Shown: one piece after another, positions 4,539 to 61,084 of the stretch
Position numbering within the stretch: position 1 is the stretch's first letter
Layout of the letters: every line of letters begins with the position of its first letter
Source of the DNA: Globodera rostochiensis
Taxonomy: Eukaryota; Nematoda; Chromadorea; Rhabditida; Heteroderidae
Direction of reading: 5' to 3'
Assembly (NCBI GenBank): GCA_018350325.1
Contig: JAEVLN010000001.1
Location: forward strand, 6,291,254-6,355,253
DNA length: 64,000 nt
Program-made: the position numbers and the translations under genes
Notes under the pieces: model-generated
The model's database searches: none
Seen by the model: the letters and a program-made list of their open reading frames with translations, nothing else
Told to the model about the DNA's origin: nothing

Positions 4539-7414
4539 ATGCCGAGTACCGCCGTGCAGAAGCTTTTGTTGGCCGTTTCCATCTTTTTGATCGTCGCCGG
4601 TCTCGTGCTGACCATCTCGGGAGTGTTTTCGCCCGCCTGGCAAGTCGTGGACATCCGCGAATTCCGAGCAGAACACCAGGCGAATTTGCATTTTTTTTTT
4701 CAAAAAACATTCAAAAAATATTTCATAGCCAACGGGGAAGACTCCCATTAAAAAGGCAATCAATCGCAATTATTGCGATTGATTGCGAACATAATTTTAT
4801 CATTTTCTGATCGATCTGAAATCACCGCAATAGCAACTAAAAATAGAGAGAACAATCTGAGAAAAGTGAAGGCCAGCAGAAATTAAGCAAAATTTCAATG
4901 GTTGGAAGAAACCTTCTCGAATAAATTGTCCATTTTCATATCAATTAGCATTAATTAACAAATTATGTCCAAAGGCTTATAAACCGCTTCTTCTCCCCTT
5001 TCAGCATGGCCTCTGGTGGGATTGTATCCGTGCCGAAAAGGTTGGCAAAAACGTTCTTTTGTTGGCAGGCTAATATATGTTAGCGCCATTTTAGCACGTG
5101 GTGGCGGTGGGCGACTTTTACGACGAGGCGCCGTTGCATTGCATGTACAAATTTGACGAATCCGCGGCATTGGTCATCGAAAATACACTGGTGGGGTGGC
5201 CAATTGGCACAAATTATTATGGCCAAAACAATATGCCGTGGCATTTCCATTTTTCAATTTTAGAACCGAATTGATGAGGACGGGGCGGCCGGCGAAGCGG
5301 AGCACCACCGATTTTGGTGGGTAAAACCAATAGTGTTAATTGGGCCTTTCGAATTTGAACCCCCCAAGGGGACGGATGCTGGCTTTGATTTTTTTTTTGA
5401 AAATTTAAAACCCTCGGGCGCTAAATTTGGCAATTTAAACCCCTGAGGGACGGATGCTGGCTTTGATCTTTTTTTTTTTTGAAAATTTAAAACCCTCGGG
5501 CGCTAAATTTGGCAATTTAAACCCCTGAGGGGACGGATGCTGGCTTTGATCTTTTTTTTTGAAAATTTCTATCCCCGGGCGCTAAATTTAGCAATTTAAA
5601 GCCCCCAGGGGTGACACAATGTTATGCAAATTCAAATATTCCCCCAGGGGCTGGCATAAGGTTTTCAAATTCAATTCCCCCAGGGGCTGGCATAAAGTTT
5701 TTAAAATTCAAATTCCCCCCAGGGGCTGGCATAAGGTTTTAAAATTCAATTCCCCCCCCCCCCCCCCCCCCCAGGGGCTGGCATAAAGTTTTTCAAATTC
5801 AAATTCCCCCAGGGGCTGGCATAAAGTTTTTAAAATTCAAATTCCCCCCAGGGGCTGGCATAAAGTAAATTCCCCCAGGGGCTGGCATAAAGTTTTTAAA
5901 ATTCAAATCCCCCCCCCCAGGGGCTGGCATAAGGTTTTTCAAATTCAAATCCCTCCCAGGGGCTGGCATAAAGTAAATTCCCCCCAGGGGCTGGCATAAT
6001 GTTTTCAAATTCCCCCAGGGGTTGGCATAAGGTTCTGCTGTCTCTGATAATCTTCTCCCAATTGGGCGCCTTTGTCGCCATGTGCACGGGCGTCTGTGCC
6101 CCGTGCTTTCCACCAACCACCTTCTGCTTCGCCATCTCTCTGTTTATCGCCATGCTTTTGTCCATGCTCGCCGACGGCATTTTCTTCTTCTACGCCAATC
6201 GCGTCGACGTTCGCTTCGTCACCGGTAAGTTACGACGCGTTAATAATATTAATTTGTAATTTATTTTATTCATTTTAGGAATGGTCGGCACTTACGTAAG
6301 TGCCATTCATTTATTGCTTTTCCTCCCTCTTTTTACTTCCCAAATCAATCGATTGGCTTTAGGAGCAAGTGATCGGCTACGCTTTTTACCTGCACATGGG
6401 CGGCACTCTGTGCTGGGTCTTCGCCTTTTTGTGTGCCATTGCCACCACTTACAAATTTCTCACCTCCGACGGACAGCAGAGGTACGGTATCTATCAATAC
6501 CGTAACTAACAATCCCCCCCCGGGGGGGGGGGGGAACTGTGCCGATTATTACACAACGACCGTTCGTTCCTTTCTTCTTCAGTTTATTTCGCATCAAAGC
6601 TTTTTGTTTCTTCCTGTTCAGTTTTGACTGCTTTCATTTTGGTTTTTGAATGTTTGGCACTTTGATTTGCACTTTAATAATTGCACTTTTTATATTTCAT
6701 TTCGTCAAGAGTTAATTAATTGCTGCAACTTTGCCTTCTCCCCCACTTTCCTGCGGGGCATCGCCAACTTTCAGAGATTGCCGAAGGGGGAATTCCTTCA
6801 GCGCCGTGGCACTTTGGCACTGGCACTGGGTGTGCCGAGAATGAAACAAAAAATGTTTTTTGATTTAGTCTCGTCTTGTCTCGATTCTCAAATGTCAGCT
6901 CGGCTTTCTCGAGTCTTGACGCGTTCACAGTCTTACACTCTAGTTGGTTGTATCAAACCGTTTGTGTCCGTTCCATTTAAATACCGTATCCGTCCGTCTG
7001 CCCGTCCGTATTACCGTACCTGACGGAATGTCCAATACCCTTGGCGCCCCTCTCGTCAAAATTAAACGAATCACGTCGATTCTCCCCACTCAACAAACAA
7101 TTCACAGCTATAAATTCACAAAACTTGTCTACTGTATCTTAATAGTCTTTTCTCCTCGGCACAGTATAACTTTGCTACCGTATGCCACCGTATGACCGAC
7201 CGTCCCTATTTTAATGTGTGAACTTTTCCATTTTCTCCACAGAAAACTGTTCGAAGACGGCCCTCCGCTTCACTCGGCCGCCCGCGCCTCCGTCTATCGT
7301 CGGCCCGTGGTCGAATGGTCCGCCGGCTCTTCCGCCGGCACGCCCCAAAGAGCGGCGGGGGGCGGCAAAAGCGCCGGAACGTTGCGACTGATCGGATCGA
7401 ATACGCAAGTGTGA
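4539..7414 (+). CDS. Clc-like four-transmembrane protein (copy A)
   Basis: A nematode Clc-like (claudin-superfamily) integral membrane protein, probably at cell junctions or in tissue-specific membranes. Exons: 4539-4679, 5005-5040, 5095-5190, 5264-5316, 6019-6224, 6279-6295, 6363-6481, 7243-7414; all phases close, 279 residues. TM1 lies at about residues 8-30, followed by the family signature PAWQVVDIREF, then HGLWWDC and LHCMYKFD in the first extracellular loop. EHHRFW joined to GWHK precedes TM2-TM3 in exon 5 (GAFVAMCTGVCAPC), and TM4 is in exon 7 (WVFAFLCAIATTY). The C-terminal tail is Gly/Ala/Ser-rich. Intron 1 starts with GC (CAG|GCGAAT), chosen because it alone joins AEHQ to HGLWWDC. 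Exon 6 is only 17 bp. Intron 4 is filled with two minisatellites. A truncated second copy lies at 16377-18013. Confidence 0.92.
5350..5612. repeat. Intronic tandem repeat, ~80 bp, 3 copies
   Basis: Upstream half of Clc-A intron 4. Units contain GGACGGATGCTGGCTTTGAT, a T run, then ACCCTCGGGCGCTAAATTTGG. It is absent from the duplicated copy at 16.5 kb, so it arose or was lost after the duplication. Confidence 0.85.
5640..6018. repeat. Minisatellite built on the 3' splice site of Clc exon 5
   Basis: About ten units of 26-50 bp. Each ends its C run in CAG followed by GGGCTGGCATAA, reproducing the true acceptor and first 12 bases of exon 5 (CCCCCAG|GGGTTGGCATAA at 6012-6030). Every unit is therefore a decoy acceptor plus exon start. 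Confidence 0.92.
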
Positions 7415-8947: not shown

Positions 8948-10317
8948 ATGGAACAGCAACTGAAGGAGATGCAGCATGAAATGAAGAACGCGAGACTCGA
9001 GCTTGAAAATGTGAATAATTTCTAACAAAATAATTTTTTGGCATTTGTTTAGAAGGCACTTCACGCCGCATTGGAACATCAGAAACTGCTGAATGCCCAC
9101 AAGGACATGGAATTGGAGTTGAAGCAATTGAAGCAAGGACTTATTGGCCTTGAGCAAAAGCAAACGGCGAATTTTGAACAACAAAAAACTGATCAAAAAG
9201 CACTGAGTGCAACGATTGATCACGTAAGTTTAAAGGCAATTAATGGTTCGGTTAAGACCAAGGCTAAAAAAGGGGGGTTTTGAAAACCCTGAGCCAATTT
9301 CAGTCCCAAAATGGCAATTTCAGTACATTTCGGTGTCCAACTCTGTTTTAAGCATTTTATCCCTAAATTCAGAATTTTATTAATTAAATTTAATTTAATT
9401 AAAAGGGAATGAGTCAGCTGAAAGGGGAACTGATTACAAAGATGGAGGAGTATCAGAAAGTACAGCAACAGAACATCGACGCGTTGACTTCAGGACAGAA
9501 GGCAAATGGTTGGGGAATTGTTGTTTAAATGCTTTCAATATAATTAAATTTTAATCTCTTTAAATAATATTATTTAATTTTCAAAATAAAAGAATTATTA
9601 GGGCTAACGCTCCAAAACCGATGGGATTCCGCTGCGTGTCACGAAGGCCTCACACTCATTGAGCCCGAACGATTGATTGCCCAACATAACGGAAAGCATT
9701 TGTGTAAATTAAACGATTTGATTTAATTATGTAATTAGTTCACAAATTGGTTCGATTCAGCCTCTCCAGTGTTCGCTGAACAGCCAATTCCAAAAAAGGA
9801 GTTCGGCATTTTCTACTTCGAAGTGACAATCTCTGGGGAAGTCGCAGGGCAAAATGAGTAAGTTAAACAAATAATAAAGTTAATAAAATTATATTTATTT
9901 GTTAGCTTTTTTTACATTGGACTTGGCACCAAAGAAAGGCCATTAGGCAAATGGGTTGGACGTCGTCTCGCAGACGCTTACGTATACCTAAACTATGGCA
10001 TTTTGTCGGGTCACGAAGACATTGTCCAATGTGCTTCGTTTGGTGTCGGCGACGTCGTCGGCTGCGGCGTCAATTTGGCAACTCGCCAAATCATTTACAC
10101 AAAAAATGGAAAGCGTTTGGGTGAGAAAGAAAAAGATTAATTAAATTTGTTATTAATTATTTTGGTGATTACTAATTTATTTGTTTTTGCAGAAACTACC
10201 GGTTTGTTTGTGTCTGCCGCCGAATTGTTTCCATTCGTTTCGTTGGGACTAGTCGGCACCAAAATTGAAGCCAACTTCGGACCAAACTTCAATTTCAAAA
10301 TTGCCGAAGGGATTTAG
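8948..10317 (+). CDS. SPRY-domain protein with N-terminal coiled coil (copy A)
   Basis: Exons 8948-9010, 9053-9223, 9406-9508, 9602-9703, 9761-9857, 9906-10120, 10193-10317; 291 residues. Residues 1-111 are a Gln/Glu/Lys-rich coiled coil ([23 protein letters not shown]). Residues 112-291 form a SPRY domain with landmarks [51 protein letters not shown] and IEANFGPNF. This is the SPRY type expanded in cyst nematodes; the secreted members are SPRYSEC effectors. No signal peptide is visible here, so this copy is predicted to be intracellular. A 5' UTR intron is likely at 8780-8923 (GTAAGT...TTTAG), 24 bp before the ATG. SPRY folds bind protein partners; the partner here is unknown. Confidence 0.9.
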
Positions 10318-11008: not shown

Positions 11009-11147
11009 TAGGGTGCGGAAAAATGGCTTGGACCCGGGCCGGGTATTTTTTTAATTTTTCGTCCGGGCGGGTATTTCCGGGTGAATACCCGACTCGGGTA
11101 TTTGCGTTTCGGGTACCCGCCCGACTCGGGTACCCGTCCGCACCCTA
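11009..11147. mobile_element. Short non-autonomous DNA transposon (MITE), 8-bp target duplication
   Basis: Ends are TAGGGTGCGG at 11009 and its complement CCGCACCCTA at 11147. The flanks carry a perfect 8-bp direct repeat CTTTTCAC (11001-11008 and 11148-11155). The interior is GGGTA/TACCC-rich and self-complementary. Eight-bp duplications fit the hAT superfamily; the assignment is inference. Confidence 0.8.
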
Positions 11148-16250: not shown

Positions 16251-16376
16251 ATTTTGAAACGAGAAAAAAATTAGTGAAAGAAAATGGGGATAATTTGATA
16301 GTGACCATAGAAAGTGATGTCCTCATTTGTCGTCAGTCGCCGTCGACGTATTGAAATGGTTATCATTTTGGTATTG

Positions 16377-18013
16377 ACCAGGCGAATTTGCATATTTTTT
16401 GGAAAATCAAAAAACATTCAAAAAATTTCATAGCTAACGCGGGGAAGACTCCAAAAAAGGCAATCAAGCGATAATTTTATGGTTGTTAGTCCATTTTCAT
16501 TTCAATTAGCATAAATTAACAAATCTGGTCTGGCATAACAAATTCAAATTCCCCCAGGAGCTGGCATAAGGGTTTTTCAAATTCAAATTCCCCCAGGGGC
16601 TGCCATAAGGGTTTTTCAAATTCAAATTCCCCCAGGGGCTGCCATAAGGTTTTTTCAAATTCAAATTCCCCAGGGGTTGGCATAAGTTTTTCAAATTTAA
16701 ACCCTAGGGGCTGGCATAAAGTTTTCAAATTCAAATTCCCCCAGAGGCTGGCATAAAGTTTTCAAATTCAAATTCCCCCCAGGGGCTGGCATAAAGTGCT
16801 GCTGTCTCTGATAATCTTCTCCCAATTGGGCGCCTTCGTCGCCATGTGCACGGGCGTCTGTGCCCCGTGCTTTCCACCAACCACCTTTTGCTTTGCCATT
16901 TCTCTGTTCATCGCCATGCTTTTGTCCATGCTCGCCGACGGCATTTTCTTCTTCTACGCCAATCGCGTCGACGTTCGCTTCGTCACCGGTATTTAGCGAC
17001 GCATTACAAATATTAATTTGTAATTTATTTTATTCATTTTAGGAATGGTCGGCACTTACGTAAGTGCCATTTATTTATTGCTTTCCTCCCTCTTTTTGCT
17101 TCCCAAATCAATTCGGCTTTAGGAGCAAGTGATCGGCTACGCCTTTTACCTGCACATGGGCGGCACTCTGTGCTGGGTCTTCGCCTTTTTGTGTGCCATC
17201 GCCACCACTTACAAATTTCTCACCTCCGACGGACAGCAGAGGTACGGTATCTATCAATACCGTAACTAACAATCCCCCCCCCGGGGGGGGGGGGGGAACT
17301 GTGCCGATTATTACACAACGACCGTTCGTTCCTTTCTTCTTCAGTTTATTTCCGCGTCAAAGCTTTTTGTTTCTTCCTGTTCAGTTTCGACTGCTTTCAT
17401 TTTGGTTTTTGAATGTTTGGCACTTTGATTTGCACTTTAATAATTGCACTTTTTATATTTCATTTCGTCAAGAGTTAATTAATTGCTACAACTTTGCCTA
17501 GCGGGGCATCGCCAACTTTCAAAGATTGCCGAAGGGGGAATTCCTTCAGCGCCGTGGCACTTTGGCACTGGGTGTGCCGAGAATGAAACAAAAAATGTTT
17601 TTGGTTTAGTCTCGTCTTGTCTCGATTCTCAAATGTCAGCTCGGCTTTCTCGAGTCTTGACGCGTTCACAGTCTTGCACTCTAGTTGATTGTATCAAACC
17701 GTTTGTGTCCGTTCCATTAAACACCGTATCCGTCTGTCTGCTCCTCGGCACAGTATAACTTTGCTACAGTATGCCAATTCCCCTCCCACCGTATGACCGA
17801 CCGTCCCCATTTTAATATGAACTTTTCCATTTTCTCCACAGAAAACTGTTCGAAGACGGCCCTCCGCTTCACTCGGCCGCCCGCGCTTCCGTCTATCGTC
17901 GGCCCGTGGTCGAATGGTCCGCCGGCTCTTCCGCCGGCACGCCCCAAAGAGCGGCGGGGGGCGGCAAAAGCGCCGGAACGTTGCGACTGATCGGATCGAA
18001 TACGCAAGTGTGA
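16377..18013 (+). pseudogene. Truncated Clc-like copy B (exons 5-8 only)
   Basis: Keeps the equivalents of exon 5 (16783-16988), the 17-bp exon 6 (17043-17059), exon 7 (17123-17241) and exon 8 (17842-18013), each the same length as in copy A with open frames and intact splice sites. The start codon and the first ~109 residues (TM1 and the WQV/GLWWDC loop) are missing: the breakpoint falls in exon 1 and a deletion at about 16520 removed exons 2-4. Without a start it is presumably a pseudogene, unless an upstream exon has been captured. The clean downstream frames suggest a recent event. Confidence 0.85.
16540..16782. repeat. Minisatellite with decoy acceptors, copy B
   Basis: Six to seven units of the same type as 5640-6018, each with a C run, CAG and GGGCTGGCATAA-like bases, ending in the real acceptor at 16782. 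Unit number and sequence differ from copy A, so the array is still changing. Confidence 0.9.
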
Positions 18014-19440: not shown

Positions 19441-21058
19441 ATGGAACAGCAACTGAAGGAGATGCAGCATGAAATGAAGAACGCGAGACTCGAGCTTGAA
19501 AATGTGAATAATTTTCTAACAAAATAATTTTTTGGCATTTGTTTAGAAGGCACTTCACGCCGCGTTGGAACATCAGAAACTGCTGAATGCCCACAAGGAC
19601 ATGGAATTGGAGTTGAAGCAATTGAAGCAAGGACTTATTGGCCTTGAGCAAAAGCAAACGGCGAATTTTGAACAACAAAAAACTGATCAAAAAGCACTGA
19701 GTGCAACGATTGATCACGTAAGTTTAAAGCATTTAATGAATGGCTCGGGTCAGAACAAAGTCCCGGCTAAAAAGGGTGGTTTTGAAACCCCTGAGCCAAA
19801 TTTCAGTCCCATAATGGCAATTTCAGTATATTATCGGTGTCCAACTCTGTTTCAAATTGTTATTTAAAATTAAATTTAATTTAATTATAAGGGAATGAGT
19901 CAGCTGAAAGGGGAACTGATTGCAAAGATGGAGGAGTATCAGAAAGCACAGCAACAGAACATCGACGCGTTGACTTCAGGACAGAAGGCAAATGGTAGGG
20001 GAATTGTTGTTTAAATGCTTTCAATATAATTAAATTTTAATCTCTTTAAATAATATTATTTAATTTTCAAAATAAAAAAATTATTAGGGCTAACGCTCCA
20101 AAACCGATGGGATTCCGCTGCGTGTCACAAAGATCTCACACTCACTGAGCCGCATCAATTGATTGTTCAACTTACAGGAGCGTCTTGCGGTAAGCTTATC
20201 GATTTGATTAAAGTTTTATGGTAAGCTTATCGATTTGATTAGCTTATCGATTTGATTAAAGTTTTATGGTAAGCTTATCGATTTGATTAAAGTTTTATGT
20301 TAAGCTTATCGATTTGATTAAAAAGTTTATGCAGAGAGTTCACCAAATGTTTGAAATTGCCTTACTTTTCAGTGTATCGTTCTGTCTTCGCTGAACAGCC
20401 AATTCCAAAAACGGATTTTGGCGGCATTTTCTACTTCGAAGTGACAATTTCTGGGGAAGTCGCAGGGAGAGACGAGTAAGTTAAACCAAATATGTAAATT
20501 CAAGAGTCTTGAAATGAGCGGATCCGGAAACCGGATTCCAGAAGTGTAAATCAGCCCGGAAAAAAACCCGGATTCCATCCTACCGGATCCGGTACGGTCT
20601 CCAGAGTAAATAAATAGAGCTTCAAAAAGTTTTAAAAAAAATTATATTTAGTTTTGTTAATATTGGATTTGCCACCAAAAAAATGTCATTGGACCAATAC
20701 TTTGTAATGTACTGCGGTGATGCTTACATATACTCAAGCAATGGCATTTGTCACCATGTCGCCGTGCGCTGTGCTTCGTTTGGTGTCGGCGACGTCGTCG
20801 GCTGTGGTGTCAATTTGGCAACTCGCCAACTCATTTATACGAAAAATGGAAAGCGTTTGGGTGAGAAAGACAAAGATTAATTAAATTTGTTATTAATTAT
20901 TTTGGTGATTAACTAATTTATTTGTTTTTGCAGAAACTACCGGCTTGTTTGTGTCTGCCGCCGAATTGTTTCCATTCGTTTCGTTGGGACTAGTCGGCAC
21001 CAAAATTGAAGCTAACTTCGGACCAAACTTCAATTTCAAAATTGCCGAAGGGATTTAG
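19441..21058 (+). CDS. SPRY-domain protein with N-terminal coiled coil (copy B)
   Basis: Exons 19441-19503, 19547-19717, 19892-19994, 20088-20189, 20373-20475, 20652-20860, 20934-21058; phases close, 291 residues, equal to copy A by compensating length changes. The coiled coil (exons 1-3) and last exon are nearly identical to copy A. The SPRY core differs strongly in exons 4-6: QLIVQLTGASCG replaces [12 protein letters not shown], and MSLDQYFVMYCGDAYIYSS replaces the [10 protein letters not shown] segment; [15 protein letters not shown] and IYTKNGKR are kept. No stop or frameshift, so it is probably functional. Intron 4 holds a minisatellite made from its own donor, and intron 5 has gained about 125 bp with GGATCCGG inverted motifs. 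Confidence 0.9.
20190..20330. repeat. Minisatellite built on the 5' splice site of SPRY-B intron 4
   Basis: Units of about 30 bp on GGTAAGCTTATCGATTTGAT, four to five copies, beginning at the true donor (20190). At least two further units keep an intact GGTAAGC donor. The matching intron of copy A (9704-9760) has a single copy. Confidence 0.92.
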
Positions 21059-37800: not shown

Positions 37801-40800
37801 AGGTCAGTCAGTTAGTACAATTGGGGGGGGGGGGGGGGGGACAAATGCCGTGCTGAACTTGCCGAGGCCGACGATTTGTTGTTGTTCACTTCAGATGACA
37901 CGCAAAGTGCACCATTTGGAGTCACTGCAGGAGATGGAGCCAAAGTTGGAGGAGATGCAACCCGAGCAGTTGGAGCAGATCAAAGCCCACCGAATTGCCA
38001 TCACGGAACAACTGCAGCGCCTGAGGGCACCGCTGGACGAGCGCAGGCGCCAATTGGAACGGAAGAAGGCCGCGTTTCAGGTGCAATTGGGGGCTGAAAC
38101 ATTTGCGCATTTTCCTTTATTTATTTTGAATTTAAAAAAAGATTTAAATAATATAATATAATTAATAATATCCATTTGTTTAGTTTGTGCGCGACGTTGA
38201 GGACGAGAAGTTGTGGGCGGGCGAGCGAATGCCGGTAGCCGAGTCGCGGGTGATCGGCGACTCGCTGTTCGACTGCCATCGCCTCCAAAAGAACACACAA
38301 TCGTTGCGAAACGAAGTCGACAATCACGAAGTGAGTGAGAGAACAAATTGGGGGGGGGGGTGGGCTGATCACTAGTGATCGGACATTTTGTTGAATTGGA
38401 AGGTAGGCTTTATGTATTTGATGGGATTTGATTATTTCTTTTGGTTTCATTGTTCCCGCCGCTTTAAGCCTTGGATCAACGAAATTCGTGCCAACGGCCA
38501 AGAGCTGATCGACGAAGGCCATGAGAATGCGCCGCTTTTTGTGGAGAAATTGGGCGAGTTGGCACAAGTCTGGGACACATTGAAGGACGCAATTGATGGA
38601 CGGAAGCAGCGACTGAAAGACGCGGAAAGGGCCCATCAGTATTTGTACGACTGTGCGGAGGCTGAGGCGTGGATGAGCGAGCAGGAGCTGTACATGATGC
38701 AGGACGAGAGGGGGTTAGTGAGAGGGTGGGGACAGCAGGAGCTGTACATGCCCGGGGGGGGGGTAGGAGCTGTAGTACATGATTGGACGGGGCAGGAGCT
38801 GTACATGATGCAGGACGAGAGGGGGTCAGTGGGAGGGCGGGGAGCAGAAGGTACATGGACGGGGGGGCAGGGGCTGTACATGATTGGACGGGAGGGGGTA
38901 AGGGGGTAAGCTGACATGGACGGGGGGGGGCAGGAGCTGTACATGGACGGGGGGGGGTAGGAGCTGCATGGACGGGGGGGCAGGAGCTGTACATGCCCGG
39001 GGGGGGGGGTAGGAGCTGTACATGTGGACGGGGGGCAGGAGCTGTACATGATGCAGGACGAGAGGGGGTCAGTGGGAGGGCGGAGCAGAAGTTGCACATG
39101 GACGGGGGGGGCAGGGGCTGTACATGATTGGACGGGAGGGTAAGGGGGTAGGAGCTGACATGGACGGGGGGGCAGGAGCTGTACATGGACGGGGGGGGGG
39201 TAGGAGCTGTAATGGACGGGGGGGGGCAGGAGCTGTACATGGACGGGGTAAGCGGGGGAGCTGTACATGGACGGGGGGGGGGTAGGAGCTGTACATCGAC
39301 GGGGGGGGGTAGGAGCTGTACATGGACGGGGGGCAGGAGCTGTACATGACGGGGGGGGGGGGGGTAGGAGCTGTACATGACGGGGGGGGGGGGTAGGAGC
39401 TGTACATGGACGGGGGAGGAGGTAGGTGCTGTACATAATCCAGGACGAAAGGGGGGGGGGATTTATGGGAAACTCAATTACATTTTGACGCACTTTTCAG
39501 CAAGGACGAGTTCAGCACACAAAATCAAATCAAACGCCATGAGCGGCTTCAGCACGAGATTGGCCAATTTGCGGAGACCATTCGCGATTTGGCTGTTCGT
39601 GTGAAGGAACTGATTGATGAGGGCTCTCCGCTAAGGTCGGCTCGGCGGCGCGCCACCATTTTTCAGAAAGAATTGGCACAATTTGAATTTGCTTTTTTGC
39701 TTATATATTTTTATTGCCATTTAGTGAACAAATTCGTCTGCGACAAGCGCAAATTGAGAAGCTTTACGCGGGCCTTCAGGACTTGAGCAAAGAACGCCGG
39801 CGGCGATTGGAGGAGACGCTGCAACTGTACGACTTGCACCGCGAGATTGACGACCTTTTGCAGTGGATTGCGGACAAGGAGGTGAGGTGGTGGTGGTGGC
39901 CGAGAAGCCGCTTTCTTTGTTTACATAAATGTTACGTACGAAATGAATTCTGTTGAATCGTTCCGTGTCATCATCAGGTCGTCGCCGGAAGCCACGAGAA
40001 CGGACAGGACTATGAGCATGTGCAAATGTTGCAGGAACGGTTTGCACAGTTCGCGCGGGACACTGAGTCCATCGGCGCCGAGCGGGTCAGCCAAATTTAC
40101 GGGGGGAATTTGGCCACATAATTATGGCATGGCCTTGGAATTTGAAATATCTTTGGAATTTCTGAGGGTTTCATTACATTGGACAATTGGCAAAAACTTG
40201 TGCAGGTGTCTCGTGCCAACGGCGATTGTGACCGACTGATCTCTGCCGCGCATTCCGATTCGCCCACCATCGCATTGTGGAAGGATTCTCTGAACGAGGC
40301 GTGGGAGAATCTGCTGGAGCTGATCGACACGCGGGCACAGGTCGAACGGGCGGGCGGCGGGGGGCACAAAAAGGGGGGGGGGAATAAATACTGTAGGGTG
40401 CGGATACCTAGTGCTGCACGAGACCCAAATTCCCCGATACTCGGGACTCGATACCGAGACTTGACCCCCTACTCGATACTGAGACCGAGACCCAAAAAAC
40501 TCGGTACTTTTCTCGAGTCGATACTCGATACTGAGACTCCCATGCAGCACTAGCGGATACGTAGGGACACAAAAAGGGGTAATAAATACCGTAGGGATGG
40601 AGGATGCCGTACATTTTTTCTAATTCTTACTTTTTGCTATTAAGATGCTCGAGGCAAGTCGTCAGATGCACAAATTCTTTTACGACTGCCGCGACTGTTT
40701 GGCGCGCATTGTGGAGAAAACGCATTCGCTGCCCGAAGAATTGGGCCGCGACTCGTCTTCCGTCGGCACATTGTCCCGAAAACATCAGGCACGGCACACG

Positions 40801-43800
40801 AAAATGCCGCCTTTGAACAAAACAAAAGAAATTGTTTTTTAGGCTTTTCTCAAAGACATCGACGCCATTGGGGCGCAAGTGGCACAAATTGAGGGCGACG
40901 CCAAGCGGCTGAGGGACGCCTACGCGGGCGAGCGTGCCATGGAAATTGTTGGCAGGGAAAACGAAGTGCTTAAGGTGAGGTGCCGTGCCGAAACAATCGA
41001 TCGCATTTCTTATGCGCGAAATTAGCATGGCATGGCATCCGCCCGTTTAGGCTTGGCACCAGTTGCGTGCCGCGTGTGAGGCGCGTTCAATGCGTCTGAA
41101 CGACACGTCCGACTTGTTCCGCTTCATGAACATGGTGCGCGACCTTCTCGTCTGGATTGAGGAGGTGAAGCGGGAGATGCTCAGCCATGAGAGGCCCCGG
41201 GACGTGTCGGGCGTGGAGCTGTTGATGAACAACCATCAGTCGCTGAAGGTGAGAGGGGGGGGGGGAAGTGCGGCACGAAGACCAAAAGCATGACCTGAAT
41301 CTTCAAAGGCGGAAATTGACACGCGCGAGGAGAACTTCCGCGCGTGCCTTGCGCTCGGCAGGCAATTGTTGGAACGGAATCACTACGCGAGCGCTGAGGC
41401 AAGTCGCGCCTGCCCTGCTGCCTGGCAATCCAGGGCGGGGGCTTTGTGTGCATGCGCAACCCCTCCCGTTTGTTAAGGTGGAGAAGAAGTTGCTGAAGCT
41501 GACGACGGACCGCACGGACATGATGCACCGGTGGGAGGACCGCTGGGAGTACTTGCGACTGATCCTCGAGGTTTACCAATTTGCACGCGACGCTGCGGTA
41601 GCGGAGGCGTGGCTGGACGCGCAGGAGCCCTACCTGAAGTCGCGCAACTACGGCCGCAACTTGGAGGAGGTTGGAGGAGGAGGGGGAGGGGACATTTTGG
41701 GGAGGGGACTGAATTCATCACTTGGCCATTTATCAAGGTGATCGCACTGATCAAAAAGCACGAGGCGTTCATGAAGAGCTCCGCGGCACAGGACGAGCGC
41801 TTTATGGCACTGGAGAAGTTCACCAACTATGAGCTTAAAGAGATGCAACGGAGAGGTGAAAGAGAGAGAGAGAGAGTTGGCCTTTGGGGTGGAGTAGAGA
41901 CCGGACGTGATCGGGATTTAGCCGGGATCCCTCCTGATCATTTTTGGGGGGGGGGGGATTTCGGGGATTGATTGTTGGATTAGGATTGTTGGGATCCCTT
42001 CCGACCGACATTTTTAGGGAATTTCGGGATTGATTTGTTGGATCGGGATTGTCGGGATCCCTTCCCTCCCGATCATTTTGGGGATTTTGGGATTGATTTG
42101 TTGGATTGGGATCCTGTCGACCGATTAGGGGATTTCGGGATTGGGTCTAGATTGGCATTTAGCCGGGATCCAGAACCCGAAGAATCAGTTTGGGCCGGTC
42201 TCTAGTTTGGAGAGTTGGTGCGGTTGACCACACACTGAATTATTTTTTATTATGTTCCTTAAAGAACGTGCCCTGGAGGAGGAACGGCGCCGTCGCGCGG
42301 GCGAAACTCCGCCGAAGGGCGGCCGTGCCGGCGAGACGGTGTTCCCGGCGAGCATCAGCGGCGAGGCCGAGCCCGCCTCGCGTTCGCACGAAGGTGGGCG
42401 GGCGGTTATTGATTATTTGTTTTGAATTTGTCCGTTCCGTGAACTGTTTGTTGTTCTTGGTGGTGCACACCGTTTGTGCATGTTGCCCATGGCGCCAATT
42501 TAGGAAAGCGCAACGACCACAATTCGATCAATGAACGAATTGAATGGCATTTATAAAAATTAGTTTTGTTTCATTTCAAACACTTTTCGGCACATTTTGT
42601 GCTTCATCCCATTTTGTGTTGTGTATTTTTTGTGTGCACATTCAAATTCATTTGCCGTTGTGTTTGGCACTTTATACGCGCGCGTTTCCGTTAGAATTGG
42701 CCGCCCACCGCCAACGCCAGCAGCAGCAGCAACAGCAGCAGCGCCTCCTCGGCTCCGCGCAGCCGCCCGCCCTCCTCGCGGCGGAGCCGTCCTCCTGGCG
42801 AATGTCCCTCAGGCGCGAGCCGCGCATCGACTTGGCCGACCAGCGCGGTTTGTTTCTGTCCGTCCGTCCGTCCGTTCATTCAATGCATTTGTTTGGCGTT
42901 TGTTTGTTTTTTGCTGTGACACAAATTAATTGTTCATCAACAGCAGAGAGTGTTGTGCCCCCCACTCACTCAATTCATTCACTCGCACAATTTGAAACTT
43001 TTGGATCCGTTAATTTTAGGCCTTTTGACCGCAGCAGACACTTTTGAAGGAGTACTCATCCGAAAACATAACTTTGAAGGCTTCGAACGGAGGGCCTCCC
43101 ATCGGTAGGGACGGAATTTGGGCTCCCAAATCCCCCCGGGGGCACGGGGGGCAGGCCTCCCATTGGTACGGACGGAATTTTGGATTCCCAAAAATCCCCT
43201 GGGGGCACGGATTGAATTTTGGATTCCAAAATCCCCCGGGGGCAGGGGGGCAGGTCTCCCATCGGTCCGGATTGAATTTTGGCCCCCGGGGGCACGGGGG
43301 CAGGCCTCCCATCGGTACGGATTGAATTTTGGATTCCCAAATCCCCCGGGGGCACGGGGAAGGGGCATTACTTCGTTGGCATTCCTCAAAATTTCCAGCG
43401 CCTGGGAGAAGCTGTACACAGTGTTGTTCAACGGCGATTTGTACTTCTTCAAAGACGCCCGACATCGTCAGGAGCAGCCGCAGAACACCTTCCGGGGCGA
43501 GGCGCCGCTTCAGCTGGCGGGCTGTTCCGTCCAGCCGGTGGAACACCCAAAACGGCGCCACGTCCTCTCAATGAAATGGCCCTTTGGCTCCGAATTTTTG
43601 CTCCAATGTGCCGACGAGGTCATTTTTTGATAAACCGAATATGTGCCTTTCATTAATATCTTTGAGTTGATTCGTTTTGATCTGATCATCTTTCGACTGA
43701 TCATTCTCTCGTTCCGATGGATCGATTGCCCTTTTTCTTCAGTTCTACTGATCACTCATTCCGCCGATCAATCGATTGCCCTTTTTCTTCAGTTCTACTG

Positions 43801-44271
43801 ATCACTCATTCCGATCAATCGATTGCACTTTTTCTTCAGTTCTACTGATCACTCATTCCGATCAATCGATTGCCCTTTTTCTTCAGTTCTACTGATCACT
43901 CATTCCGATCAATCGATTGCCCTTTTTCTTCAGTTCTACTGATCACTCATTCCGATCAATCGATTGCCCTTTTTCTTCAGGAGGACTTGCAGCGGTGGCT
44001 TCTTCAATTGCAGCAGAGCGCCGCGTTGCGGTCAGGCGGAGGTGCGCAACAACAACAACAGCAGCAGCAGTCCTCTGCTGCTGGACGCATTGCCGCTGAA
44101 GCTCCGACGGCACATGGCGTTGGCTTGATGGTCTCCTCCTCATCGGAGTCGGGTGAAATGGTTGCCGCGGCACATCCGCCGCCGCCGCCGTCGGCGCAAC
44201 AGCAGCAGCCGCCGCAGGAGCAGCCGGAAAAGAAGGCACGCCGGGGCTTCTTCTCGAGGGCTAAAAAGTGA
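28808..44271 (+). CDS. unc-70: Beta-spectrin (UNC-70 type)
   Basis: Membrane-skeleton protein that links actin to membranes and ankyrin as a tetramer with alpha-spectrin. 48 coding exons, 7152 bp, 2383 residues, all phases consistent: 28808-28943, 29329-29480, 29562-29735, 29810-30098, 30180-30253, 30491-30570, 30628-30781, 30839-30902, 30975-31086, 31374-31534, 31578-31979, 32771-32988, 33085-33312, 33402-33536, 33607-33681, 34024-34128, 34199-34390, 34439-34481, 34647-34780, 34949-35052, 35131-35224, 35296-35394, 35459-35485, 35534-35594, 35812-35984, 36113-36199, 36330-36630, 37278-37399, 37456-37632, 37689-37802, 37895-38080, 38184-38330, 38469-38713, 39501-39635, 39725-39881, 39978-40085, 40206-40340, 40645-40788, 40843-40974, 41051-41248, 41309-41398, 41478-41669, 41738-41855, 42265-42393, 42695-42847, 43020-43104, 43399-43618, 43981-44271. 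Start MTTDI resembles insect beta-spectrin. Two calponin-homology domains lie at about 46-275 ([27 protein letters not shown]). About 17 spectrin repeats span roughly 305-2090, followed by a Gln-rich linker. A PH domain is at about 2192-2300 ([21 protein letters not shown]). The C terminus is FFSRAKK. GC donors follow exons 7, 17, 38 and 41. Confidence 0.97.
28994..29210. repeat. Tandem repeat in spectrin intron 1
   Basis: Three to four units containing TTTGGAACAGTTTGG and GTTCAACACCAACTCGGCC, within 28944-29328. Confidence 0.85.
32034..32605. repeat. 36-bp minisatellite in spectrin intron 11
   Basis: About 16 units of GGACGTGGACGGTTTAAACA followed by CCTCGGGCGGGGGGAT. The whole array sits in intron 11 (31980-32770), and open frames on both strands (repeats of [10 protein letters not shown]) are artefacts. 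There are no unique spacers, so it is not a CRISPR array. Confidence 0.95.
32629..32700 (+). other. Degenerate tRNA-like / tRNA-derived SINE head
   Basis: Contains an A-box-like TAGCTCAGTGG and a B-box-like GGCTCGAGTCC with a perfect T-stem (GTGGG/CCCAC) at the right spacing. The anticodon stem does not pair and the acceptor stem is imperfect, so a working tRNA is unlikely. A tRNA-derived SINE promoter or tRNA pseudogene is more likely. Lies in spectrin intron 11. Confidence 0.55.
36631..37230. repeat. Minisatellite built on the donor of spectrin exon 27
   Basis: Real junction GGATCG|GTGAGTGGACAGCGACT at 36625-36647. About seven diverged units follow with GGATCGGTGGGTGGACAGCG-like cores, CCCCGGGG, GCTTAAGG and TACTGTATG, reaching 37170. 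Confidence 0.88.
38714..39440. repeat. Minisatellite built on the end of spectrin exon 33 and its donor
   Basis: Exon 33 ends CAGGAGCTGTACATGATGCA, GGACGAGAGGGG and donor GTTAGTGAG. The intron repeats GCAGGAGCTGTACATG with G runs about 20 times. At 38792-38835 and 39035-39080 units include ATGCAGGACGAGAGGGGGTC, i.e. exon plus a donor-like site. Confidence 0.92.
40408..40553. mobile_element. 146-bp MITE in spectrin intron 37
   Basis: Terminal inverted repeats CTAGTGCTGCA (40408) and TGCAGCACTAG (40543-40553) are flanked by a perfect direct repeat CGGATAC (40401-40407 and 40554-40560). The interior is a self-complementary run of ACTCGATACTGAGAC-like motifs. No coding capacity. Confidence 0.85.
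42504..42556 (+). other. unc-70: Possible alternative terminal exon of beta-spectrin
   Basis: An acceptor AATTTAG at 42497-42503 is followed, in the phase left by exon 44, by [17 protein letters not shown] and TAA. Using it would end the protein before the Gln-rich linker and PH domain, like the short-C-terminus beta-spectrins of other animals. Inference from one acceptor and phase only. Confidence 0.35.
43105..43375. repeat. Minisatellite built on the donor of spectrin exon 46
   Basis: Real junction GGCCTCCCATCG|GTAGGGAC at 43093-43112. Four further units keep GGCAGGCCTCCCATCGGTAC or close variants followed by GAATTTTGGATTCCC and CCCCGGGGGC. Each unit copies exon end plus donor. Confidence 0.92.
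43690..43980. repeat. 47-bp minisatellite built on the acceptor of spectrin exon 48
   Basis: Six units of GATCAATCGATTGCCCTTTT with TCTTCAG and TTCTACTGATCACTCATTCC. Each carries the full polypyrimidine tract and CAG of the real acceptor at 43980. Confidence 0.93.
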
Positions 44272-45095: not shown

Positions 45096-45838
45096 TTTAA
45101 GTTTTCTGACCATAACTTTTTTGAGAATTGCCCAATCGCAAAGTTTTAACTTAATGATAGCTTCTACTCTACGACAGCTTTCGAAAAGCTTTAAAATCGT
45201 CAGAATCGGTTACGGTTGAGGCAAGTTATTGACCGTGAATTTTTTTTAACATCCCCGGGGTCTGGTGTTGGAATTGCAGCGGATGGACCGGCACGCCGTT
45301 GTGGGACAGTGAGGACAGAAGGAGGACTTTTGCCGGCGGCAGTGCCGCGGGGGTTGTAGGAAAACTGAAAGTGATCGGAGTGATCAAAACGTCAGAGGTC
45401 AGACAAAGTGATCGGAGTCAAAAATTTCAAACAATTAACACAACAACCTGTTCCTGTCCCGGACTTCGAACAGTCTCAGACGCCTTCTGATCTGCCCATC
45501 GTCCAGCCACCGGACCAACTCTTCGGGTTGGACCACAAATTGGTGGGACGCCTCGGGGGCAGAAGAAGAGGACGACGCCATTGGCGAAGACGGAGTTGCC
45601 GACTGCGTTTCCATTGTCAGAGCTTCGGACGATGTCCATGCTGGTGATGTTGCTGGTGCTTCTGATACTTCCTCCTCTTCCTCCTCTCCCCCTTCGCCTC
45701 CTTTTTGTCCAGAAAGAGTCGCCGGAGGCAAAACTTTTGGCGGCACTTTGTGAGGCGTTGTGGTTGAGGTTGGCATTGGCACAAGCCTGAGCGGCCAGTT
45801 CATCTGATTTTTGCGTCTCATTTCGCTGTTGTTGTTGG
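45096..45838 (-). pseudogene. Second broken copy of the membrane rhodanese gene
   Basis: Same orientation as the intact gene; matches 51963-52853. Keeps exon 2 from about VANNNSEM to the end (45838-45448, including a shorter Glu run), and the first half of exon 3 (45364-about 45267). A deletion then joins it to sequence like intron 3, including the foldback arm 45096-45235. TM segment, N-terminal region and second rhodanese domain are missing. Confidence 0.85.
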
Positions 45839-50757: not shown

Positions 50758-53671
50758 TCACTTTCAAATGGTCCGGGGCCCTGACCAGCCATTCGGGCCA
50801 TGCCCCAAAATACAATTCGGCGCTGAAATTCGCGCGTAGCAGTGCCGTCCACACAAAAGCGGCACGATGGGACGAGAAGCCGTCATAAACGATGATGGGA
50901 CGGCCGGGCGAAAGGCCAAATTGGGCGTGGAACAGCGTGCGCTGCCCCTCGGGCGACAGGCCGTCCAAAGTCTCCACCGGAACGCTTTTGGCACTTCGAA
51001 TGTGCCCGAAGATGGCGCCGGAGGCGGACGACGAGGGGCCGGGGACGGACGGGGCATGGCCGTCAAATTCCTAAAAAAAATTCCGCTTTTTTAGTTGACG
51101 CCGTTGGCGCTAAATTTGAGTTGAATGACGTCATCACTAGAGCCCGGACTTTTGAAAAATCCGGAACCAAGATCGAGATTTGGGATGGGCCGAGACCGAG
51201 ATCGAGAGTTGTCTCGAAATTTTGAGTGTCCAGGTCTCGGAATTTTCGCCAAATTTCCGAGATTCGAGACCTGGACTCTCGGAAAATCTCGGTCGGGATC
51301 TCGATCTCGCCGGGCTCTAGTCATCACTTTGTAAATTGAAAATCTAAAATTTTAGCGATGACGTCATTTTATGTTTTTTATTTAATTTAAGCGTTCGCCG
51401 GCGGCGACTGACGGCGAATGATTTGTGTTTATACGAAATGGAAATCACTTTTTATGTTCCCATCGAATTACCCCAATTTTCTTTCACTAAATTTTTGATC
51501 GAATTTTTTCTAAATTTGCCTCACTTTTTCCGTCTGAGCGTCCACAATGTCCGCAACATTTGCGCTTGCGGCGTTGTCTCCCTCAAAATTTGCCAAAACG
51601 TCGTCAAAAGTGGCAATGAATTCGGCGCGCCATTGCGCCTGAAAAATGCCGATGGGCGAATGCCCGGGGGACACGTTTGGCGGCACATTTAGGCCCTTGA
51701 GCAATGTGATCAGCGAAGTGCCATTCACCGTCCAATTTGGGCCACCCATTAGCAACAGCGAATTGTCGAGTCCGAAAAGCTGATCGGTTTAAGACAAAAT
51801 ATTTAAACAGAAATAAGTCTGGGGGATACGGGATGGTTCGAGTACGGACCGAATCAAGACCCCGAGGCAATACCTGCTTCAACCTTAACCGATTCTGACG
51901 ATTTTATAGCCTTAAGCTATCGTAGAGTAGAAGCTACCATTAACAGCCAGCATCTTTGCGTTTTAAGTTTTCTGACCATAACTTTTTTGAGAATTGTCCA
52001 ATCGCAAAGTTTTAGCTTAATGATAGCTTCTACTCTACGACAGCTTTCGAAAGGTTATAAAATCGTCAGAATCGGTTAAGGTTGAGGCAAGTTATTGCCC
52101 CGGGGGTCTGGATTCGATAGGAAGCCGTTCAAGCAGTACAACGACACGAACCCGAAATATCCAAAGGGCGTAATGTGCCCACAGCTGTTGCGGTGACTGA
52201 ACGTCGTAGAGGAGAACAACGGAGCCGTCGTCAACTTCTTCAGAACGCAAAAAGCGTTGGAATTGCAGCGGATGGACCGGCACGCCGTTGTGGGACAGTG
52301 AGGACAGAAGGAGGACTTTTGCCGGCGGCAGTGCCGCGGGGGTTGTAGGAAAACTGAAAGTGATCGGAGTGATCAAAACGTCAGAGGTCAGACAAAGTGA
52401 TCGGAGTCAAAAATTTCAAACAATTAACACAACAACCTGTTCCTGTCCCGGACTTCGAACAGTCTCAGACGCCTTCTGATCTGCCCATCGTCCAGCCACC
52501 GGACCAACTCTTCGGGTTGGACCACAAATTGGTGGGACGCCTCGGGGGCAGAAGAAGAGGACGACGCCTTTGGCGAAGACGGAGTTGCCGACTGCGTTTC
52601 CATTGTCCGAGCTTCGGACGATGTCCATGCTGGTGATGTTGCTGGTGCTTCTGATACTTCCTCCTCTTCTTCCTCCTCTTCCTCCTCTCCCCCTTCGCCT
52701 CCTTTTTGTCCAGAAAGAGTCGCCGGAGGCAAAACTTTTGGCGGCACTTTGTGAGGCGTTGTGGTTGAGGTTGGCATTGGCACAAGCCTGAGCGGCCAGT
52801 TCATCTGATTTTTGCGTCTCATTTCGCTGTTGTTGTTGGCCACCCACAGGGAGAGGAAAGCGATGGACAACAAAATCAGACAGAACGCCAAGAAGGCCAA
52901 GGCGGGCCAGAACTAAAAAACTGGTCAAATGAACAAACCAAACTTCGGACAAACTAAACCGGCAAATGGACAAACGAACAAATCTTTTGTATCAGGATAA
53001 ATAATTTAAATGGCAATTACCCTGGCCAAATTTGTCTTCCCGAACGGCTTCAGCTCGCGCTTTGCGTTTCCAAAAAGTTTCGGTGGCGGAAGTGGCGGAG
53101 GAAGCGGCGGCACTTTGGGCGGAAGCGGCTGCACCTTTTTGTCAAAAATGCCAACCTTGGACGGGCTCGTCTTCTGCTGCTGCTGCTGCTGCTGCTGGTG
53201 GCGGTACATCATTCCAATTCTGTCCTTCTTGCACTCCTCCCCGTCGTCCCCGTCCTCGTAATGGTTCTCCTCCAACTCGTCGTCCCCATCCTGGTGTTGC
53301 TGCTGTTGCTGTTCGTCCTGCTTCCCCTGCAGTTGCTGTGGATGTTCATGTCGCCATTGAACGCGTCCAGTGCCCACTCCGTTGCCCATTATGGGCGATT
53401 TGGAGTGCCGTTTGCCCAATTGGATTTCCTCCACCGTACAGTACGCCTCGCGTGGCAAATTGCCCTCTGTTGGCGAAGTGTCCAACGCCGTCGCCGCTTC
53501 TCCATTTGAATTTTTTGCTTTTGCATTCGATGGGCCCCAATTGTAAGTGCCACGAAAGGATGTGTTGACGGGCAACGAACGGCGTTCTCCAAGACAAATG
53601 CCATTATTATTATTGTTGTGGGCGGTGGCACGTGGTGCCCACGCCTTCCGCTGGGACTTTGCCGAAAACAT
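50744..53671 (-). CDS. Membrane-anchored tandem rhodanese-like protein, catalytic Cys absent
   Basis: Minus-strand exons 53671-53021, 52912-52437, 52353-52152, 51779-51525, 51070-50744; phases 0, 2, 0, 0 close, 636 residues. Residues 1-217 are hydrophilic with Asn, Gln and Pro runs; residues 218-241 form one transmembrane helix (FWPALAFLAFCLILL). A Glu run and Ser-rich linker follow. Two rhodanese-type modules come next. Module 1 is about 343-510 (VVQPEELVRWLDDG, VVLLYDVQSP, ALWIFR|LFGLDNSLLLMGG-PNW), and the exon 3/4 join restores the usual WIF-R-x-FG-LLxGGxPNW order. Module 2 is about 513-636 (VDAQTEKEFDG, FGHIRSAKSVPVE, PIIVYDGFSSHRAAF). Rhodaneses and mercaptopyruvate sulfurtransferases use a Cys in the loop after the IIVY strand; here it is Asp591, so sulfur transfer is unlikely. 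Reading exon 3 through its donor would instead stop at 52092. Confidence 0.82.
51137..51320. mobile_element. 184-bp foldback MITE in the last intron of the rhodanese gene
   Basis: Terminal inverted repeats CTAGAGCCCGG and CCGGGCTCTAG are flanked by TCATCA at 51131-51136 and 51321-51326. The interior is self-complementary (GAGACCGAGATCGAGA-type motifs). Confidence 0.82.
51886..52090. mobile_element. Palindromic element in rhodanese intron 3
   Basis: CCTTAACCGATTCTGACGAT (about 51889) is inverted at about 52062-52081, and CTTAAGCTATCGTAGAGTAG pairs with the CTTCTACTCTACGACAGC arm at 52027. The right arm (51963-52090) is copied at 45096-45235 beside the broken rhodanese copy. Confidence 0.75.
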
Positions 53672-57600: not shown

Positions 57601-57683
57601 ACTTTGGACAAGGTAAATAAGCAAATTACCTCCCCGCAAAGTTGCTGTTGCTCATGTTCAAACTGTTCAGCTTCGTTGTCCAT
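54666..57683 (-). CDS. Rhodopsin-like seven-transmembrane receptor (orphan GPCR)
   Basis: Minus-strand exons 57683-57630, 57567-57248, 57203-57153, 57099-57045, 56571-56497, 56436-56290, 56230-56088, 55865-55808, 55375-55308, 55283-55167, 54939-54666; every phase closes, 453 residues. TM1 is at about 26-51 with the usual Asn (FGAGANLALF). TM2 is at 66-90 with the conserved Asp (ALLDASI). TM3 ends in ATLERLVWI, an ERY-type motif. TM4 is in exon 5 (LGACALLRLPTYW), TM5 in exon 6 (TVFPFFVLLAFN), TM6 in exon 9 and TM7 in exons 10-11 (IVSFVYMFTSAARSLIYFAF, then NPSTRAQI). The third loop is long and basic; the tail has Cys and Arg clusters and ends EEVIVL. It is probably a peptide or small-ligand receptor of a nematode family; no ligand can be named. 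Exon 3 is set by a weak GTGTGT donor, chosen by phase. Confidence 0.8.
54950..55150. repeat. ~55-bp tandem repeat in receptor intron 10
   Basis: Three units of GGGTTCGGCAAGTATCAGAA, TGAAACCGTGGCAGCAGTAC and GGCCTTCC plus a C run. The array reaches to within about 10 bp of the acceptor at 54940. Confidence 0.88.
55395..55800. repeat. Compound tandem repeat in receptor intron 8
   Basis: Units of AGTACCGTAATCCTCCCCCT, CTACCATAATATACTAA, and a longer form adding GCCGCCTGTTGTAAGCGCAC. Six to seven copies in 55395-55800. Confidence 0.92.
56640..57010. repeat. CCCGGG-rich tandem repeat in receptor intron 4
   Basis: Units built from GGGATTTTGGACACCC and GGGCAACCGGATACCGGTCC-CGGGTACCGGATGCTC, about four long units; internally palindromic. 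It makes open frames on both strands that are not genes. Confidence 0.92.
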
Positions 57684-59488: not shown

Positions 59489-59580
59489 CCTCTACCGAAC
59501 ATTGGAAGGCCAACATGCAGATGGGACAGGAGAAGTTGGAGCAGTTATGGGGTGGGTTTGGCAACATTGCTTTATTGTAA
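59489..59580 (+). other. Possible orphan terminal exon
   Basis: After a good acceptor (CATTTTGCACAG, ending 59488) an open frame reads STEHWKANMQMGQEKLEQLW, then GGFGNIALL and TAA. The charge pattern is protein-like, but no upstream plus-strand exon was found. The opposite strand has a CPIC motif, so orientation is uncertain. Confidence 0.25.
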
Positions 59581-59807
59581 ATTGTGATAGATCGGGCAGC
59601 AAGCATATTCCGATCGATCTTATCTCGGTGAAAAGTGAGAAAGAGAGAGAGAGACAAAATGGAAATTTTATTATTATTATTAGTTCAATTACAATTAACA
59701 TAATAAAAAAATGGGCTCTTTGGTTCGTTATGAAGATAGTTCTCCCCCGCAAAAAGTTTCAAAACTGAAATTTAATAAATTAATGCAAAAAAGTAAAAAA
59801 TTAATCC

Positions 59808-61084
59808 CTAAACATTACAGCGACTAACACGGCACAAATGTTTGATTGTGATAGTTTCAGTCTGTAGGAAACGGTCAATCAGTTGGTCAAGCTTTTGCAG
59901 CAATTCATCAACCTAAATTATTCAAATTTAAACAATAAAAAATAAAAATTCCCATTTTAAAAAATATTTTTGTTAATGATTCTGCAACAAACGTAAGGCC
60001 GATTTGGCAAAGCCGAGTCCGGCATGTCCTGTATTTCCAATTCTCCAATGCCAAACTGATAGACAAGTCCTAAATTGAATTAAAATTTATTTTTGGATTA
60101 AATTAAAGCGTCCTAAATTAAAGGATTAAATTAAAGTGTCCTAAATTAAGTTAAAATTTATTTTTGGCTTAAATTAAAGCGTCCTAAATTAAATTAAAAT
60201 TTAGTTTTGGATTAAATTAAAGCGTCCTAAATTAAATTAAAATTTAGTTTTGGATTAAATTAAAGCGTCCTAAATTAAATTAAAATTTATTTTTGGATTA
60301 AATTAAATCAATTACTAAGCGAAGCCCATTGCGCACGCTCTACTCGCTTCGGAAGCTCACAACCGAAGGCGTATTCACCCCTCAGCATGTCAAGGGCCAA
60401 TCGAATGTCGAAATATGAGGACAAACATTCAAATGCCTTTTAAAAAAATTAAATTTTTCTAAAAACTTTGAAGGTGCCAATAATTCAGAATTTTTATATT
60501 ACAAAAATTCCAATCATTCCTATATTACTGATTAGCCCTTCTCCTTCCGGACTCATTTCTGATCAACTCCCCCTCCCCGGACTCATTTCTGATCAACTCT
60601 CCCCCCCCCCTCCCGGACTCATTTTTGATCAACTCCCCCTCCCCGGACTCATTTCTGATCAACTCCTCCCCCCCCCCCTCCCGGACTCATTTCTGATCAG
60701 CCCCCCGGACTCATTACTGATCAGCCCTCCCCCCCGGATTCATTTCTGATCAACTCCCTCCCCCCGGACTCATTACTGATCAACTCCCCCCCCCCCGGAC
60801 TCATTTCTGATCAACTCCCCCTCCCGGACTCATTTATGCCCCCGGACTCATTACTGATCATTTACATGCCTACCCCTCCACCCACCCCAGCAGAAAGTGA
60901 TCTCTGGTCATGCCATTCCCTTTTTGATCACCAATTCTTGCACATGTTTCAAAAAGTGGGCCATGTGTTTAAGCAACAGATGATCAAAGGCATGGGACAC
61001 GCGCACATGGGCCCATCGCCGATGGAATTGCATTGAGCGGACAATTTCCCAGAGCAGTTCGGCCGGCACTTTTTTGAATGCCAT
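59808..61084 (-). CDS. Small F-box protein
   Basis: Minus-strand exons 61084-60932, 60436-60316, 60069-59993, 59912-59808; phases 0, 1, 0 close, 151 residues. Residues 5-42 form a clear F-box: VPAELLWEIVRSM, then WAHVRVSHAFDHLLLKHM, with the LPxELLxEI and RVSxxF landmarks that contact Skp1. The remaining ~110 residues (YFDIRLALDMLRGEYAFG, YQFGIGELEIQDMPDSAL, VDELLQKLDQLIDRFLQTE) are helical in character and unlike the other F-box family in this window. It would act as a substrate adaptor of an SCF ubiquitin ligase; the target is unknown. Introns 1 and 2 both hold tandem repeats. An antisense open frame at 60836-61036 is a shadow of exon 1. Confidence 0.75.
60070..60305. repeat. ~45-bp AT-rich repeat built on the acceptor of F-box exon 3
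   Basis: On the minus strand each unit contains AATTTAG|GAC, the real acceptor and first codon bases of exon 3 (60070). About five copies of the plus-strand form GTCCTAAATT lie at 60108-60275. Confidence 0.85.
60535..60865. repeat. Tandem repeat in F-box intron 1
   Basis: About ten units of CCGGACTCATTTCTGATCAA plus CTCC and C runs. Confidence 0.92.

Follow-up and report, generated by a model that had tools for sequence, protein, structure and literature searches.

We analyzed a window of 64,000 nucleotides (nt) on contig C1 (C1:6291254-6355253) of a nematode-like genome that totals 92.6 Mb in 80 contigs. The window (GC content, 47.4%) carries on its forward strand two Clc-like genes (Clc-A, Clc-B), two SPRY genes (SPRY-A, SPRY-B), and a beta-spectrin gene with ~48 predicted exons (28833 to 44267), and introns of several of these genes contain minisatellite arrays whose repeat unit includes the host intron's own splice site. 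A preliminary description of this DNA had listed eight such introns and was largely right: judged by eye, with copies counted by a junction probe, splice-site-bearing arrays are real in seven of the eight. Because Clc-A and Clc-B are paralogs with a common array, these seven amount to six independent cases. Gene models were made with a self-written spliced gene finder trained on clear spectrin exons, and introns were predicted from DNA only. Tandem Repeats Finder reported 85 rows within the window, and tandem repeats cover 11.6% of it compared to 10.7% of a 264-kb set in which the window was joined by 20 stretches of C1, each 10 kb long and evenly spaced, so its repeat load is nothing unusual.

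In intron 4 of Clc-A (5317 to 6018), an acceptor array on the forward strand (5602 to 6035) holds 12 copies of a ~39-nt unit with CCCCCAG|GGGCTGGCATAA. The true acceptor, after position 6018, is the last of the 12. When the flanking exons are joined there, the resulting 170-amino-acid piece matches Pfam family PF07062 (Clc-like) at residues 2 to 169, a match that spans the intron 4 junction (one junction residue was entered in the query as F where the DNA gives W). The Clc-like family is suggestive of a nematode. The paralogous forward-strand array in Clc-B (16539 to 16797) has seven copies, with the true acceptor after 16782. Clc-A and Clc-B share 91% aligned identity over 1,242 columns, and a genome search with the Clc exon returned two copies, both inside the window. 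The SPRY genes make up a second paralogous pair: intron 4 of SPRY-B has a forward-strand donor array (20189 to 20322) of five copies at 31- or 17-nt spacing that begins at the donor, and the corresponding intron of SPRY-A (9690 to 9760, forward strand) has by eye a single copy of the segment and no array. The upstream flanks of the two SPRY genes have 92.4% identity over 1,092 columns. The SPRY-B array probably arose at the donor after gene duplication, the alternative being loss from SPRY-A. Copy numbers thus differ between paralogs in this single assembly, at 12 versus 7 in the Clc pair and 5 versus 1 in the SPRY pair. Both pairs are carried by a local direct duplication (5794-10364/16539-21105) whose main pieces lie 10.5 to 10.7 kb apart and which has 89.5 to 96.7% identity in five alignments.

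The beta-spectrin gene contains 12 array clusters in 11 introns (11 clusters in the repeat-masked rerun), 5 of which touch a junction, one of these being a G-rich run at 35595. Four forward-strand arrays of this gene have a splice site in the unit. Two donor arrays lie in the introns at 36631 to 37277, with six degenerate copies of GGATCG|GTGAGTGGACAGCG (36625 to 37167), and at 38714 to 39500, with an array that by eye is seeded by ~33 exon nt (38680 to 39461) and has 12 copies at a loose threshold, including the true site; two of the extra copies are near complete and the others are truncated. A third donor array, in the intron at 43105 to 43398, has four copies of GGCCTCCCATCG|GTAGGGACGG, including the true one (43092 to 43332). 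The fourth is an acceptor array in the intron at 43619 to 43980, with six copies of a 47-nt unit ending in CCCTTTTTCTTCAG (43692 to 43980); the true acceptor is the last copy, and the array stops exactly at the true AG without any exon nucleotide. Homology supports these junctions. Joined exons at junctions 36630 and 38713 fall within matches to beta-spectrin chain 8iah_M (query 16 to 543, range only), the top-ranking spectrin hit; a match to 6m3p_A (query 416 to 543, range only) also covers the joined exons at 38714, and the PH-domain piece across 43104 and 43980 is gapless at both junctions in its alignment to 1dro (Drosophila beta-spectrin). Together with the Clc-A match, these alignments support the prediction that use of the outermost site would give a conserved protein. 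Elsewhere in the same gene, the intron after 31979 holds a 36-nt array of 16 copies (32023 to 32604) whose beginning continues the reading frame of the preceding exon without a stop; the DNA just downstream of it (~32625 to 32700) looks tRNA-like by eye, with no call from ARAGORN. The intron at 40398 to 40600 has a short inverted repeat (CTAGTGCTGC...GCAGCACTAG) within a duplicated flank and resembles a small inserted element.

The extent to which units reach into the exon varies among the seven arrays. Exon bases, which had been described as present in several units, are clear in five (Clc-A, Clc-B, and spectrin 36631, 38714, and 43105), and the exon portion per unit is 6 to 7 nt in spectrin 36631, 12 nt in spectrin 43105 and Clc-B, 16 nt in Clc-A, and ~33 nt in spectrin 38714. 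The SPRY-B and spectrin 43980 arrays only abut the boundary, since their units hold ~1 and no exon base, respectively. Tandem duplication across a splice boundary, as first proposed, is a fitting description of at least five of the seven. The eighth intron named, intron 2 of a small F-box gene, did not hold up: a 43-nt array is present (60071 to 60307, no strand assigned), but the 500 nt on either side of it are free of predicted exons and by eye its unit has no convincing acceptor copy, and we rejected the case on these grounds.

To ask how often arrays overlap junctions, we assembled a 320-kb sample from the window, the C1 stretches described above (20 in all), 10 kb each of C2 and C3, and two spectrin-family loci (26 kb surrounding a C28 gene and 10 kb of a second gene, on C1; both genes match spectrin repeats only, without a closer name). 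The sample is not random throughout: the C1 stretches are evenly spaced, those of C2 and C3 each come from one fixed position, and the two spectrin-family genes were deliberately picked. It yielded 340 predicted introns with repeat masking and 349 without, containing 66 and 65 intronic array clusters, respectively. The intron at spectrin 43980 is absent from the masked run and present in the unmasked one, which also contains spurious introns predicted within arrays. The gene finder missed SPRY-B intron 4, and none of the statistics include it. Junctions were touched by 12 of 66 clusters in the masked set (6 of 24 in the window and 6 of 42 elsewhere) and by 18 of 65 in the unmasked set (12 of 25 and 6 of 40).

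These counts were set against two null models. In null A, the whole array is dropped uniformly inside its present intron; in null B, a single unit of length p is placed uniformly, edges included, over the intron collapsed to one unit. We regard null B as the better model of array birth, because the array itself makes up part of the intron's length, while null A treats it as inserted whole. Under null B, 19.2 junction-touching clusters are expected in the masked set against the 12 observed [P(≥12) = 0.995, P(≤12) = 0.012], and 21.9 against 18 in the unmasked set (P of at least the observed number, 0.93; of at most that number, 0.13). With the SPRY-B and spectrin 43980 introns added by hand, the masked count becomes 14 of 68, with ~20.2 expected. 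An earlier run on the window and C1 stretches likewise gave 12 of 46 against 12.6, and when the beta-spectrin clusters are taken by themselves, 5 of 12 reach a junction where the null B probabilities sum to 4.4.

In the position profile, junctions are repeated less often than intron interiors. Among introns longer than 130 nt in the masked set, windows at 8 of 168 donors and 2 of 168 acceptors are repeated, compared to 16.0% and 16.4%, respectively, of 1,008 interior windows each; without masking, the figures are 10 of 168 donors and 5 of 168 acceptors compared to 14.8% and 15.7%. In a strict set of 146 introns (median length, 111 nt with arrays counted in), repeat coverage rises from 0.6% in exon interiors to ~11 to 15% at 60 to 80 nt into the intron, and the junction itself shows no peak. 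The exon-score filter behind that set lost several true cases, and a looser set of 260 introns was therefore also examined; it gives a like picture. Strong splice-like sites in the units of the 66 masked arrays show no sense-strand excess over the antisense strand (donors, 9 versus 7; acceptors, 8 versus 7). For the genome as a whole we tested one acceptor motif only, TTTTCAG repeated three times with 12- to 42-nt gaps, with the reversed motif as a control. Such triplets are not enriched (175 matches versus 910 for GACTTTT), while the single motifs are equally common (37,936 versus 37,941); triplet counts are matches that overlap within arrays and are not reduced to arrays, with motif and control treated alike. 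The 5-fold-commoner GACTTTT triplets may perhaps belong to one large satellite family. Only 3,666 copies of the canonical donor string AGGTAAG are present in the 92.6 Mb, compared to 21,180 for the reversed string, and the predicted donors are degenerate. For the published Globodera rostochiensis genome, a GC content of 38.1% and a donor consensus of CAGG[T|C]AAGT are given (PMC4901422), a poor fit to the 47.4% GC of the window.

The statement that these introns are packed with decoys as strong as the true site proved too sweeping. Sites that equal or exceed the true one in score are present eight times in Clc-A, four times in spectrin 38714, three times in spectrin 36631 (these in G-runs), and once in Clc-B, outside the array; SPRY-B, spectrin 43105, and spectrin 43980 have none. 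As background, 32% of the 260 sampled introns have a donor-like site and 39% an acceptor-like site that at least matches the predicted true site in strength. Tested in five arrays (Clc-A and the four of spectrin), 25 of 26 decoys lead to a stop, while the remaining one, at spectrin 38824, would insert 111 nt in frame; on this basis we rejected decoys as a supply of isoforms. With nearly all decoys leading to a stop, selection would be expected to leave the true site outermost, and this position is not evidence of design.

We think it likely that these arrays arose as minisatellites ordinarily do in a genome rich in repeats and that the founding duplication sometimes happened to span a splice junction, with no targeting of junctions needed. 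Such a genome would make minisatellites at a high rate, and where introns are short, tandem duplication of a 30- to 100-nt unit in or near an intron would often overlap one of its ends. As long as splicing continued at the outermost copy, the protein would be unchanged, and the array could expand toward the intron interior through slippage or unequal exchange; were an inner copy used, the reading frame would almost always be broken and the allele lost. The expected survivors would be arrays with a real donor or acceptor in the unit, sometimes with exon bases, and with the true site outermost. Both the growth process and splicing of the RNA at the outermost site are what we infer from this pattern.

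Several observations weigh against this account. Null A expects only 3.9 junction-touching clusters in the masked set against 12 observed (P = 1.4 × 10^−4) and 6.9 against 18 in the unmasked set (P = 6.7 × 10^−7). Every one of the 22 acceptor decoys found across three arrays retains its AG, an outcome that does not necessarily follow from neutral drift. High-scoring junction repeats are more frequent in the window than elsewhere (introns scoring at least 17: 7 of 90 in the window versus 4 of 250 outside with masking, and 11 of 91 versus 4 of 258 without), and clustering by gene or region is possible. The introns themselves are predictions of our own gene finder from DNA, and two of the seven confirmed introns were missed or dropped in the masked run. 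As for the individual high-scoring introns, five of the seven in the masked window set are confirmed cases; the other two are doubtful, because 35595 is a G-rich run and the donor at 40398 differs from those modeled at first (40340, 40349). Four more lie outside the window, and only L034 was judged convincing by eye, L009 and L024 being low-complexity purine or G-run matches; the exon end in the C28 case is implausible. Doubtful cases in and outside the window were all retained in the counts. The L034 intron (C1:5366001-5376000, 9372 to 9520), in a spectrin-family gene, has GGAGTTCAGA|GTCCGT repeated once ~50 nt on, spanning the junction.

The excess over null A, along with array edges that fall exactly on a splice site (spectrin 43980, SPRY-B 20189), is what one would look for if splice junctions were preferred seeds, that is, if some process at the AG|G or G|GT boundary, tied for instance to R-loops, cotranscriptional splicing, or boundary microhomology, started the duplication. 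The preliminary description had implied a shared mechanism of this kind and had proposed enrichment of array edges at splice sites as its check; in the 320-kb sample, with predicted introns, array-junction overlap is enriched against whole-array placement but not against unit seeding in collapsed introns. The observed count falls between the two nulls, as would be the case if duplications arose without regard to junctions and selection then eliminated some of them. Junctions are also less repeated than intron interiors, splice motifs in units lack sense-strand enrichment, TTTTCAG arrays (the acceptor motif only) are not enriched genome-wide, and no junction array was judged convincing among the 42 introns of the C28 spectrin-family gene. 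A junction-directed mechanism is thus weakened rather than excluded; on the null B counts, the motif comparison, and the triplet test, we rejected it as unnecessary and regard preferred seeding as improbable.

We give scant credence to the idea that arrays are kept because their decoys are useful, whether by buffering splicing, slowing it, or producing regulated isoforms subject to nonsense-mediated decay. The invariant AG in acceptor decoys would fit it, as would the 25 of 26 decoys that feed into stops, which a decay switch would need, and the presence of the Clc array in both paralogs. Donor decoys, however, are often lost: GT is kept in three of three in spectrin 43105 and four of five in spectrin 36631 but in only two of four in SPRY-B and 3 of 11 in spectrin 38714. 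The SPRY array, moreover, is present in one paralog only.

That the arrays might be a route to new introns had also been suggested, and published models (PMC4974935, PMC3087553) make it reasonable to ask whether they are remains of introns made or extended by tandem duplication of AGGT-bearing exon segments. Exon-derived units do lie inside introns, with ~33 exon nt in spectrin 38714. By eye, however, each junction-spanning array carries a donor or an acceptor only, at one end of an existing intron, and a nonrepeat stretch occupies the other end, so that no single duplication supplies both sites; we saw no sign of intron birth, rejected it for this reason, and consider it very unlikely. Least plausible of all is an assembly artifact with inflated or misassembled copy numbers: long G-runs and low complexity make some arrays (spectrin 38714) hard to assemble, but copies differ among themselves, arrays differ between paralogs, and TTTTCAG-motif arrays occur on at least 10 contigs among the matches listed (the first 100 of 175).

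With ordinary minisatellite birth as the preferred account, the arrays still bear on how splice sites are chosen. A speculative extension, to which we attach a low probability, is that the arrays, being frequent enough in some genes (5 of 12 array clusters in beta-spectrin), are a natural experiment in which only the last of 6 to 12 near-identical acceptors gives an open frame and the spliceosome picks sites by position or exon context and not by strength, or else heavy decay of missplicing products is tolerated, and in which acceptor copies may be selectively kept (AG in 22 of 22) as a functional decoy or decay element. The acceptor arrays of Clc-A (12 copies) and spectrin (6 copies) are good test objects for choice among many alike 3′ splice sites. 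The analysis also supplies a null model, in which short introns and frequent tandem duplication produce junction-spanning arrays without targeting.

Apart from the Clc/SPRY duplication, the window contains a further direct duplication (45095-45839/51961-52840, 95.6 to 97.6% identity) and an inverted one, in which 15363 to 16007 matches 52032 to 52918 at 86.9 to 90.9% identity and 45267 to 45408, a 142-nt piece, at 97.2%.

Arrays of this type have partial counterparts in several published systems. In Caenorhabditis elegans, CeRep25B is an intronic minisatellite linked to alternative splicing (PMC4039745); like the present arrays it is nematode and intronic, but it consists of shared short motifs of one repeat family and not of the host intron's own splice site. 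Human duplicated genes have been altered by internal tandem repeats that are minisatellite expansions (PMC2812944), and the resulting differences between paralogs resemble that between SPRY-A and SPRY-B, although the setting there is segmental duplications of the human genome. In the potato RdRp gene, an intron was gained by tandem duplication crossing an intron-exon boundary, under an AGGT model (PMC4974935). Both that case and ours involve tandem duplication over a splice boundary; in potato the new intron is spliced, whereas here an existing intron is lengthened and no new intron is seen. The closest match, contrary to the earlier statement that no described system fits, is with the mirages of amphioxus, minisatellite-like tandem repeats in Adh3 and the globins BflGb6 and BflGb9 (PMC3087553, which cites Canestro 2002 for the term "mirage"), with further lancelet examples in TnC and PGBD5 (PMC3902484). 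As those two papers describe them, mirage repeats span the 5′ or 3′ exon-intron boundary, include exon bases in the unit, and have many copies with AG or GT; regular splicing is reported to be undisturbed, and a route to new introns is suggested (PMC3087553, PMC3902484). Our arrays differ in occurring at several junctions of one gene and in being described from DNA, with repeat spacings of ~17 to 110 nt and a longer 243-nt period at spectrin 38714, and with units that hold no exon base in spectrin 43980 and ~1 in SPRY-B. They are nonetheless the same kind of element as mirages and not a new kind, with two of the seven adjoining the boundary without clearly spanning it, and they extend the amphioxus phenomenon to a nematode-like genome.

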